NCBI GenBank assembly: GCA_900696645.1
Contig: CAADGV010000006.1
Location: forward strand, 62,001-126,000
DNA length: 64,000 bases
Reading direction: 5' to 3'
Origin: an uncultured Chlorobiota bacterium
GTDB lineage: Bacteria > Bacteroidota > Ignavibacteria > UBA10030 > UBA6906
The translations under genes and the position numbers were made by a program. The notes beneath the pieces were generated by a model. That model had not been told where the DNA came from. It saw only the letters and a program-made list of their open reading frames with translations, and did not search any database. Shown piece after piece: positions 61,853-64,000 of the stretch (position 1 is its first letter; every line of letters starts with the position of its first letter).

Positions 61853-62011
61853 TTACTGCAGAATCAAATCGTCGATGTCGTATCGCTTGGGCTCGTAGGG
61901 CAAATCCCTGCCTGCATCGCTTGGTTGTACAGACGGCGTTGTGCGTGCCCGAAGCACTTTCTCGGCTGCGACGGCAAGCGTGAATAACGACAATGCAAAT
62001 AGTGTTTTCAT
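61853..62011 (-). CDS. Small exported peptide, 52 aa
   Basis: The short frame encodes a signal peptide (KTLFALSLFTLAVAAEKV) and a charged mature part (RARTTPSVQPSDAGRDLPYE, then PKRYDIDDLILQ). AAGGAAA lies 6 bases before the ATG, better support than the longer overlapping frames in other phases. Its function is unknown. It follows the 87-aa protein by 71 bases in the same direction. Confidence 0.5.
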   Translation of the reverse strand: MKTLFALSLFTLAVAAEKVLRARTTPSVQPSDAGRDLPYEPKRYDIDDLILQ

Positions 62012-62082
62012 GATTTTCCTTAAATCTTTCCTTCAATATACGTTGCCAAGCTGCTTTCGGGCATACCGCGTTTGGGGTATTT

Positions 62083-62346
62083 TCAGAGCTGCTTCAGACT
62101 TGGCATGGCCAACAGCAGGTTCCTGTCGCGCTCATCCACTTCTACGACATGCCCCGGCCGCTCAAACCAATACCTCTTGCCCGATACAAATCCGTGAACA
62201 GTCAGGCTTGAGTTTCCCCTGTACTCGAACAACACAACGCTGCGCTTTGGCCCGGCCATGAATCCGGCCTGCCCCGGGATTGTGCCGGATGTTTGTGCTT
62301 CTGTGGATTTGTAGAGTTGTTTCCGCTGTTTGCCGCAACAAGCCAT
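62083..62346 (-). CDS. Small Cys-containing protein, phage-structural-like
   Basis: The 87-aa protein begins MACCGKQRKQLYKSTEAQ and ends in a beta-rich region (VVLFEYRGNSSLTVHGFVSG, 'KRYWFERPGHVVEVDERDR', LLLAMPSLKQL). The 'Y-x-F-PG-x-V-x-VD-x-RD-x-x-L' pattern recalls small phage head or tail accessory proteins. That resemblance is weak. AGGAG precedes the ATG, which lies 1 base after the DUF1360 stop, so the two are coupled. Confidence 0.6.
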   Translation of the reverse strand: MACCGKQRKQLYKSTEAQTSGTIPGQAGFMAGPKRSVVLFEYRGNSSLTVHGFVSGKRYWFERPGHVVEVDERDRNLLLAMPSLKQL

Positions 62347-62347
62347 G

Positions 62348-62629
62348 TCAAGTCTCCTTGTAGATTAGGCGTTGAAGAATAATAGCGCCCGCCGAAAGCG
62401 AAAGCCACAGCAACACTCCTTCACTCCAGCTTTCGGCGAGCCACCAACCGAACGGGATTGCCATCCAGATACTCAAGCAGTAGAAGCAATCCATCAGTTT
62501 TCCGAAGAACCCGTTTCCCGCTGCCCGCCGCAGGTGAATTACCGCATCCCAAGGCCCGTCTTCCGCCTGAAGCAGATGCGTCAGTCGCCAGACGGAAAGA
62601 ACAGCCAACACAAACCAGTAAAATTCCAT
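62348..62629 (-). CDS. DUF1360 family membrane protein
   Basis: The 93-aa protein has the DUF1360 pattern: FYWFVLAVLSVWRLTHLLQA (helix 1 with the conserved R-x-T-x-L), ED-GPWD, 'FFGKLMDCFYCLSIWMAIP' with the conserved C-x2-C type pair, and a final helix 'LLWLSLSAGAIILQRLIY'. Relatives include the Bacillus sporulation protein YjcA; others occur in phage- and vesicle-like gene sets. Its function is unknown. It is coupled to the 87-aa gene and lies downstream of the large Ser-rich protein, separated by hairpin repeats. Confidence 0.8.
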   Translation of the reverse strand: MEFYWFVLAVLSVWRLTHLLQAEDGPWDAVIHLRRAAGNGFFGKLMDCFYCLSIWMAIPFGWWLAESWSEGVLLWLSLSAGAIILQRLIYKET

Positions 62630-62704
62630 GTTGCAAAATGTCGATTCCTGTGCTTTGCTACCATACCGTATTCGCGGTAATTACATGTCCGAAGGCTGGC
62701 ATGT

Positions 62705-62826
62705 AGCAGGGGAGGCGATTCGGAGAATCGCCCTACAGACATGTACACTTCGGCGCGCCGGGCCCATCCCACCGGAGCCCGACGCGCCGACTCGTCACAT
62801 CAGGGCGATTCAGGATTGCCCTACAG
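62705..62826. repeat. Cluster of three hairpin repeats
   Basis: The gap between the Ser-rich gene and the DUF1360 gene holds three dyads: GGCGATTC-GGA-GAATCGCC (62714-62732); a 14-bp stem with one mismatch (62750-62763 with 62777-62790); and GGGCGAT/ATTGCCC (62803-62820). The first and third share the CGATTC/CCCTACAG words, so they are copies of one dispersed palindromic element. Confidence 0.7.
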
Positions 62827-64000
62827 CTACGCTGGCTGCTCCTCTTCTTCCGGGCAGGGGCAGCAGCGGTATTCCTGCGATTTCTCCAACAATTCGATCT
62901 TCTTTTTCAGAAGTTCGTTTTCGAGATGCCTCCGTTCGAGATCAAGCTCGATTCCTTTGGCGACGCTGTCTTCACATGTGTCGCATTCGTCGAGACATCC
63001 CTTTACGATCATACCCGGAGTCGGCAGCGAACTCTTGCGCTCGAACGAAAACTCCCGCACGATGCGATCCGAGATCTTGCCGTTCGCCCCTATCAGGCCT
63101 TGCTTCTTGAGATTGGCATCGACTTCTTTCAACGCTTCTTGTCGGAGGTTCTCGGGTATTGGTTGTAATTCTGTCGGGAAACCTTGTCGCCCGGCTGCAA
63201 ATTTCAGCTTTGCGGCTTCACTTTGTCTCCCGATTTCCTCTATTTTCAGCCTGTTTTCAGATGTTGCCAGCACGGCATTCGGGATTGCGCTCACGTCGCC
63301 GTCAGCAAGGAATGGATTGTTCGTTACTCTTGTATCCGCTGCCGGGTCAATCACACGCCGCTCGATGGCATTCAGCTTGAAGCGGACAATCTGTGTCTTG
63401 TTGATTTGATAGAAGAAGTAGGTTACCGCGTGGCATTTGTTCGGATTCGAGAACTCGCGGGAGGCGGATTCAAAATGGTCTTCCGATTCGCCTTCCTGAT
63501 GCGTACGGCTCGACACCTCGCCGATGGAAAGCGAGCTGGCGGCGCGGGTGCCCATCTCGGCACGGCGGTCGGAAGCCGAAACATGCTGCGACAATTCCCT
63601 GATGAACGTATGCGTTGACGATGCCTCGTACGATCCGCTGACATCCACCGATGCGCCGCCGAAGAAGCTCTGGATTGCGCCGCTTGTTCCGGCATGCCCC
63701 TTTGCCGAGCCACGGTTGCTGCTGCTTGCGCTCGATTGGTCACGCACCGAAACATCGGACATGAAGTCGTGCATGCTGGCCATGTAGAACCGCTCTTCCG
63801 ACGTTTGCTCGTTGCGGTAGCTCAGCTTGCTTTCGCTGTCGAACGAGAAGCGTGTCCGGCGGTCGGATGTGAATAGCCGGACTTTTTCGCCGGGCAGCAG
63901 CGTTGTGCTGTACACCAGATCGCCTAATGCCATCGGGCCGGGGCAGCGCTCCATTCGTGCGTGAATCGAAACCTCCACCTGAACGGGTCGCCCGCTCGAA
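62827..64000 (-). CDS. Large Ser-rich protein of unknown function, N-terminus outside the window
   Basis: At least 391 codons are open to the right edge, so the start is missing. Order of parts: a beta-rich segment (MALGDLVYSTTLLPGEKVRL, 'FTSDRRTRFSFDSESKLS'), a Ser/Gly/Ala-rich amphipathic stretch ('SSASSSNRGSAKGHAGTSG', FFGGASVDVSGSYEASSTHT, 'FIRELSQHVSASDRRAEMG'), a second beta-rich segment (AVTYFFYQINKTQIVRFKLN), and a C-terminal helical region with four clustered Cys (GCLDECDTCEDS) and a coiled coil ending YRCCPCPEEEEQ. The middle stretch with alternating Ser/Thr resembles the membrane hairpins of pore-forming proteins, but this is weak. I do not recognise a family. Confidence 0.7.
   Translation of the reverse strand, partial: SSGRPVQVEVSIHARMERCPGPMALGDLVYSTTLLPGEKVRLFTSDRRTRFSFDSESKLSYRNEQTSEERFYMASMHDFMSDVSVRDQSSASSSNRGSAKGHAGTSGAIQSFFGGASVDVSGSYEASSTHTFIRELSQHVSASDRRAEMGTRAASSLSIGEVSSRTHQEGESEDHFESASREFSNPNKCHAVTYFFYQINKTQIVRFKLNAIERRVIDPAADTRVTNNPFLADGDVSAIPNAVLATSENRLKIEEIGRQSEAAKLKFAAGRQGFPTELQPIPENLRQEALKEVDANLKKQGLIGANGKISDRIVREFSFERKSSLPTPGMIVKGCLDECDTCEDSVAKGIELDLERRHLENELLKKKIELLEKSQEYRCCPCPEEEEQPA

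Follow-up and report, generated by a model that had tools for sequence, protein, structure and literature searches.

A gene set coding for the proteins B, DUF1360 and D, often together with a fourth protein, BIG, is our best guess at the usual form of a mobile cassette, of which the genus of the uncultured Chlorobiota bacterium analysed here keeps BIG, DUF1360 and D. We propose, at a probability of roughly 0.35, that the products form a Sec-independent, cysteine-clamped complex which targets the cell envelope and in which DUF1360 is the membrane part. This mechanism is built, by indirect reasoning, on the domain fusions seen in giant relatives of BIG, the conserved cysteines of BIG itself, hydropathy and gene linkage. 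Searches of the open-access literature returned no description of the cassette.

The locus and its conservation within the genus

The window, that is the whole 64,000-nucleotide stretch that was analysed, corresponds to G000:C6:62001-126000, on a contig that extends to 137,236; G000 is the window genome and G001 its sister genome from the same genus. An earlier note on this DNA had described four consecutive minus-strand genes, and their ORFs were found exactly where it placed them. BIG, a Cys-flanked protein, occupies 62827..64000 (minus strand). The gene runs off the window; the contig sequence places its start at G000:C6:126125, 125 nt past the window edge, therefore only about 41 codons are hidden and the protein of 432 aa from the ATG (437 aa from an upstream TTG) is nearly complete. 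Upstream of BIG and outside the window lies a 49-aa ORF, found in the sister genome too, followed by genes on the opposite strand. DUF1360, a small membrane protein of 93 aa with the motif DCFYCLSxW, is encoded at 62348..62629 (minus strand), and D, an 87-aa protein with a CCG-(K/Q)R motif, at 62083..62346 (minus strand), its start lying 1 nt after the DUF1360 stop codon. The remaining gene, at 61853..62011 (minus strand), codes for a 52-aa peptide with a hydrophobic N-terminus.

The spaces between these genes contain several unstranded elements. A 16-bp palindrome, TACCGTATTCGCGGTA, is situated between BIG and DUF1360 at 62664..62679, and a near-palindrome with one mismatch to the pattern, TACCGCGTTTGGGGTA, between D and the 52-aa gene at 62064..62079; both are identical in G001. 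A G+C-rich inverted repeat with 14-nt arms lies downstream of BIG at 62750..62790, and a related repeat is present in G001. As compared to the sister genome, the window carries about 89 extra bases between BIG and DUF1360, in two pieces (62682-62745 and about 62801-62826). They contain repeats of AGAATCGCCCTACAG type, a small repeat element.

Comparison of the window genome with its sister gave dN/dS values of 0.053 for BIG, 0.112 for DUF1360, 0.189 for D and 0.261 for the 52-aa gene, the flanking aminotransferase having a value of 0.059 as a reference from the same two genomes. All four genes are under purifying selection between these two genomes of the genus. BIG is 91% identical in G001, and BIG, DUF1360 and D are kept together there. 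A search of 100 near relatives gave BIG, and likewise D, in the window genome and this one sister only, a third genome of the genus having neither. On comparing ten loci, the 52-aa peptide was 83% identical in the sister genome and had no match in the other eight.

Linkage of B, DUF1360, D and BIG across lineages

The gene group is conserved in relatives well outside the genus, so that the outcome named in the earlier note as refuting its reading, a group conserved in no relative, did not occur. BIG, DUF1360 and D occur together in G001, in two betaproteobacterial loci (L009 and L016) and in another lineage of the window's phylum (L038); the 52-aa peptide, which the earlier note had grouped with them, was observed in the genus only. 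The ORFs of 36 loci were searched with profiles of D, cassette-type DUF1360, BIG and B; L037, a 3.1-kb contig with BIG alone, was not among them. D was observed in nine loci: that of the window (L002), that of its sister (L007), and L009, L016, L038, L070, L071, L072 and L073. The loci had been picked for holding BIG, D or B, hence the following proportions describe these loci and not a random sample: cassette-type DUF1360 was present in the same 9 of the 36 only, directly upstream of D in 9/9, and B was directly upstream of DUF1360 in 7/9, the exceptions being the window's genome and its sister.

BIG adjoins the set in five of the nine D loci (L002, L007, L009, L016 and L038). The gene order B-DUF1360-D-BIG is identical in a Burkholderiales MAG (L009) and in L038, while the order in L016 is BIG-B-DUF1360-D. 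The set in L073 is without BIG, which the same MAG carries on another contig (L010). In L015 and L047, B adjoins BIG in the absence of DUF1360-D. Overall, DUF1360-D is adjacent in 5 of 19 BIG loci, several of whose contigs end near BIG, and BIG is commoner without DUF1360-D. No partner lay within reach of BIG in L012, L035, L036, L039, L048, L049, L050 and others, and some contigs end close to it. Since BIG is often without partners while B-DUF1360-D recurs, we consider the B-DUF1360-D link to be strong and the link to BIG to be looser. In the Propionivibrio MAG, two neighbouring genes follow the cassette (L016:4846-6788), the first with a TIR domain and the second similar to it at the start.

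B is a Cys-rich protein of 620-780 aa, with 11-27 cysteines in six cassette members (L009, L016, L038, L071, L072 and L073) and 12 in L070. Four of the first six B-like proteins, those of L009, L015, L016 and L047, were mutually detectable. Some members have stretches like carboxypeptidase-regulatory, transthyretin or bacterial Ig domains; in Pfam, TTR-52 was just over the cut-off in L071, and other domain matches, CarboxypepD_reg for example, were below it. A 703-aa neighbour of BIG in L013 and L014 was considered as a candidate B; the B profile does not match it and it was therefore not counted. One cultivable bacterium that has BIG with this 703-aa protein beside it is Dechloromonas hankyongensis XY25. 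The profile matched 19 of 296 genomes of the phylum, and all 13 further B loci obtained from these matches were without D or cassette-type DUF1360, which indicates that B occurs alone too. No B was detected in G000 or G001 by an 8-row profile, and one B protein used as query reached only E 0.22 in the window's genome. The set in the window is therefore either incomplete or works without B.

BIG relatives and a superfamily of giant proteins

A peptide-pattern scan of 84,980 species genomes yielded eight further BIG loci (L009-L016), with proteins 67-74% identical to BIG. Their hosts are Burkholderiales, Rhizobacter, Zoogloeaceae, Dechloromonas (twice), Propionivibrio, an uncultured betaproteobacterium and one 'Gammaproteobacteria' MAG, and apart from the last they are Betaproteobacteria or close to these. 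Of 296 genomes from the window's phylum the BIG profile matched 8, and of 274 from the class to which a Dechloromonas belongs it matched 6; these counts take in the query's own kind, G104 itself and two giant-protein best matches (G289, and G588, a 418-aa distant relative). BIG copies from the same phylum outside the genus (L035-L038) are only 45-57% identical, which places the window's BIG nearer to the betaproteobacterial copies. The simplest reading of these identities would be a horizontal transfer of BIG. BIG itself had no match in plasmids or phages. In genome G204, BIG is split into two overlapping ORFs (L039:7088-8454), owing to a frameshift or an assembly error.

Two weak matches of the BIG profile fell inside proteins of 1,553 and 1,666 aa. 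BIG is, by profile matching, a compact member of a superfamily of unannotated giants of 1,023-1,756 aa from bacteria and archaea. A BIG profile built without the giants matched 11 of the 12 at E<=1e-5, the remaining one (L110) giving 0.091, and the best E among 1000 shuffled copies was 1.6, so that the profile match to the core goes beyond the shuffled controls. The giants were found from L041, which itself came from the BIG profile; the set is thus not an independent sample. The main match is the core GDLxYSxxLxPGE...NxNxCHAxT, and a second, collinear match at 'slPTxGxxxxxxxxxCxxCE', usually too weak alone, was seen in 9 of the 12. Hosts of the superfamily include Bacteroidota-type bacteria, Beta-, Gamma- and Alphaproteobacteria, Cyanobacteria, Streptomyces and relatives, and the archaeon Haladaptatus. 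The core of the 1,666-aa protein, used as query, matched 27 of 72,556 plasmid and 1 of 50,697 phage records and so brought in further giants; a count of 198 plasmid records was discarded, as it had been obtained with the whole 1,666-aa query and included matches to its other parts.

Seven of the 12 giants carry known domains, C-terminal or otherwise: GH25 in L041, OmpA in L040 (over the cut-off) and L052 (25.7 bits against a cut-off of 27.2, that is 1.5 bits below), tectonin in L055 and L111, and DUF2272 in L107, which is from the archaeon, and L110. In the other five no such domain was found, four of them (L053, L108, L109 and L112) having none and L054 lying outside the Pfam search. DUF2272 is grouped in one account with NlpC/P60, CHAP and amidases, the peptidoglycan amidase effector Tse1 being named beside it (PMC10318531). 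Giants such as the OmpA family protein WP_089555793.1 of a Psychrobacter plasmid and the DUF2272 protein WP_276248611.1 of a Haladaptatus plasmid resemble BIG in the core motif, in the CxxCE that follows in the same order in most, and in lacking a Sec signal at the N-termini examined. They differ from it in their length (1,023-1,756 aa), in being mostly solitary and in N- and C-terminal domains that are missing from BIG. BIG, for its part, carries Cys pairs of its own at the two ends (CCP), and its C-terminus is short and helical.

Sequence and structure of BIG and its partners

Across 17 aligned rows, the invariant cysteines of BIG are C26, C61, C231, C381 and C384, and the alignment shows a conserved helical stretch at the C-terminus, which ends in CCP. 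The most variable part of this otherwise highly conserved protein spans about residues 130-165; it is Ser/Gly-rich, remains Gly/Ser-rich in every row, and is flanked by two predicted helices and Ser/Thr-rich strands. In the giants the corresponding position is Gly-rich too. A crude hydropathy scan of BIG, B and D revealed nothing TM-like, and the absence of a signal peptide likewise rests on hydropathy rather than on a dedicated predictor; by the same scan, 10 B proteins had neither a signal peptide nor a membrane segment.

BIG, B and D are not accounted for by any family of the PDB, NCBIfam, PHROGs or PADLOC. The earlier note had recognised DUF1360, and the assignment holds, as PF07098 scored 29.3 bits over a curated cut-off of 21. 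It was the only one of the four over the cut-off in Pfam, where no domain was found in BIG; NCBIfam had no match for the four proteins or for a 145-aa neighbour, and in PHROGs the matches of BIG, D and the 52-aa peptide were at chance level only. PADLOC returned 0 families for BIG, DUF1360, D, two B proteins and one giant, and a ZorA match, confined to L051, was at chance level (E 0.0035). BIG, DUF1360 and D are not assignable to any known anti-phage defence system among the PADLOC models. Profile searches of the PDB with BIG (two alignments), B and D yielded no credible relative; a designed TIM barrel gave the lowest E-value for D (0.0071), and was set aside as no stretch passes alone. The structure of BIG predicted from 10 rows had a pLDDT of 51, and that of a trimmed core from 8 rows a pLDDT of 33. 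A Foldseek search of the PDB with the first of these, a poor model, found nothing below E 0.67.

DUF1360 outside the cassette

Over nine rows of DUF1360 the invariant residues are L, R, L, CxxC, S and W. In PHROGs it matched a single family of unknown function (E 1.4e-6), and nine actinophage records weakly matched the DUF1360 of the window (E 3e-4 to 7e-2). The CxxC-x-S-x-W motif is kept in the phage proteins. In all four actinophage regions inspected, those of AWGoat, RiverRaider, Godines and Cece (L057-L060), the DUF1360 gene immediately precedes the portal gene. The upstream neighbour of the DUF1360 gene in AWGoat and Cece is the gene for the terminase large subunit, which in Godines and RiverRaider is several genes further upstream. 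In these four phages, then, this membrane protein keeps a constant position in the head and packaging module.

D and BIG had no relatives in phages, viral contigs or PHROGs, and neither was found to belong to a tailed-phage structural or packaging module. The description of the 87-aa protein D as phage-structural-like in the earlier note found no support, as neither PHROGs nor Pfam gave a credible match and phages gave none at all. A phage origin of D was also rejected on comparison with the neighbouring small genes of three phages, which do not align with it.

A DUF1360 match is present in Bacillus subtilis as well, in a protein that we take to be YjcA. It is like the DUF1360 of the cassette in size, in the CxxC-x-S-x-W motif and in its hydrophobic segments. 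The gene yjcA is placed in the sigma-E sporulation regulon in one report (PMC517825). That setting is absent here, where DUF1360 is always followed by D.

A putative regulon around the palindrome

The pattern TACCGN6CGGTA occurs once in the window (62664-62679) against an expectation of 0.01. A second copy lies outside it at G000:C6:126438-126453, upstream of BIG and of the 49-aa ORF; G001 has the two copies unchanged. Genome-wide, 11 sites were counted in G000 and 7 in G001, as against 1 and 2 for a reversed control pattern. One of them precedes a small lipoprotein-like gene in both genomes, one is directly before an AraC-type gene (L122; HTH_18 at 52 bits, cut-off 33.6), and another, again in both genomes, is about 430-540 nt away from a further AraC-like gene (L113 and L127), whose HTH_18 score of 28.5 bits is under the cut-off. 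Places bearing the palindrome include G000:C6:130998-131013, L120 and L125. Most of the remaining sites fall within genes and look like chance. In other organisms it was seen in L070 only, among 19 loci. A small AraC-type regulon around the palindrome is a plausible, if putative, interpretation of this distribution.

Proposed function and alternatives

The cassette corresponds to no named family or system, and its function is one that we infer. BIG, and B where it is present, would be large soluble proteins made without a Sec signal, held together by their conserved cysteine pairs and acting at the envelope, either that of their own cell or that of a neighbour. BIG may be the structural core, and the giants this core joined to a C-terminal domain that acts on the wall or binds it. 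In the cassette, the wall role would fall to a separate partner, possibly B with its Ig- and transthyretin-like stretches, or be filled from elsewhere. DUF1360 would then be the inner-membrane docking part and D, with its CCG motif, its soluble partner, all of these proteins presumably coming together in one complex. The DUF2272 and other wall-type domains of the giants are the main reason for the envelope idea; against it, BIG itself is without any of these wall domains, five of the 12 giants showed none either, BIG is commoner away from DUF1360-D than beside it, and B is missing from G000 and G001. Of the 'particle, pore or envelope system' put forward in the earlier note, only the envelope side gains from our results, by way of the GH25, DUF2272, OmpA and tectonin domains of the giants, and nothing supports a particle. 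We regard as unlikely a further-reaching version, in which B, BIG, DUF1360 and D are an undescribed Sec-independent machine delivering or displaying a cysteine-clamped complex at the envelope, and the giants are one-chain versions with a wall-cutting end.

Polymorphic toxin systems have a trunk that is conserved and C-terminal domains that can be exchanged, a number of these being active on peptidoglycan. The giants follow this same logic of trunk and exchangeable end. BIG is not a member of these systems; neither a trafficking or toxin domain nor an immunity gene was found for it, Pfam recognised no domain in it, and its C-terminus is the conserved helical stretch that ends in CCP.

Other explanations of the locus have to be weighed against an envelope-targeting complex. 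B could be a surface protein with Ig- and transthyretin-like domains, serving as an adhesin or scaffold on the bacterium's own cell, with BIG, DUF1360 and D as anchoring or assembly factors. The CarboxypepD_reg and TTR-52 matches of its stretches (TTR-52 just over the cut-off in L071), its place beside DUF1360-D in 7/9 D loci and its solitary occurrence in 13/13 further loci are all consistent with such a role, but as 10 B proteins have neither a signal peptide nor a membrane segment, and B is absent from the window's genus, it is doubtful in our opinion. It is rather improbable that the set is a pore former, in which the stretch of BIG around residues 130-165 would be a membrane-inserting hairpin, with B or the C-terminal fusions providing the targeting. 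That stretch is the most variable part of BIG and Gly/Ser-rich in every row, it has its Gly-rich counterpart in the giants, and two superfamily members contain tectonin, a lectin-type domain well known as a companion of pore formers. A flexible linker, however, would give the same picture, and we found no sequence match to any pore-former family; the poor models (pLDDT 51 and 33) gave no significant Foldseek match, whether to aerolysin- or MACPF-type folds or to others.

The remaining two explanations carry very little weight with us. The genes may be a chance cluster of unrelated, lineage-specific genes, as BIG is often without the others and B is often alone; yet DUF1360-D in 9/9 and B-DUF1360-D in 7/9 D loci across two phyla, and the same four-gene order in L009 and L038, argue against chance, which is already refuted for the DUF1360-D pairing. 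The least probable account is a domesticated piece of a phage head or packaging module, with DUF1360 and D derived from phage and BIG and B as structural proteins of a phage-derived particle. It is suggested by the position of DUF1360 directly upstream of the portal gene in 4/4 actinophages, in two of which it directly follows the terminase large subunit; but these phage matches are weak (E 3e-4 to 7e-2), D and BIG are without phage relatives, DUF1360 is found in Bacillus subtilis too, and no terminase, portal or capsid gene was recognised in the cassette neighbourhoods, as judged from sequence and partial annotation.

The palindrome beside the genes offers a handle on when the cassette genes are switched on. 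If the linkage described here does reflect one machine, then DUF1360, the CCG protein, B and the BIG superfamily, which extends over bacteria and archaea, would gain a shared and testable context.
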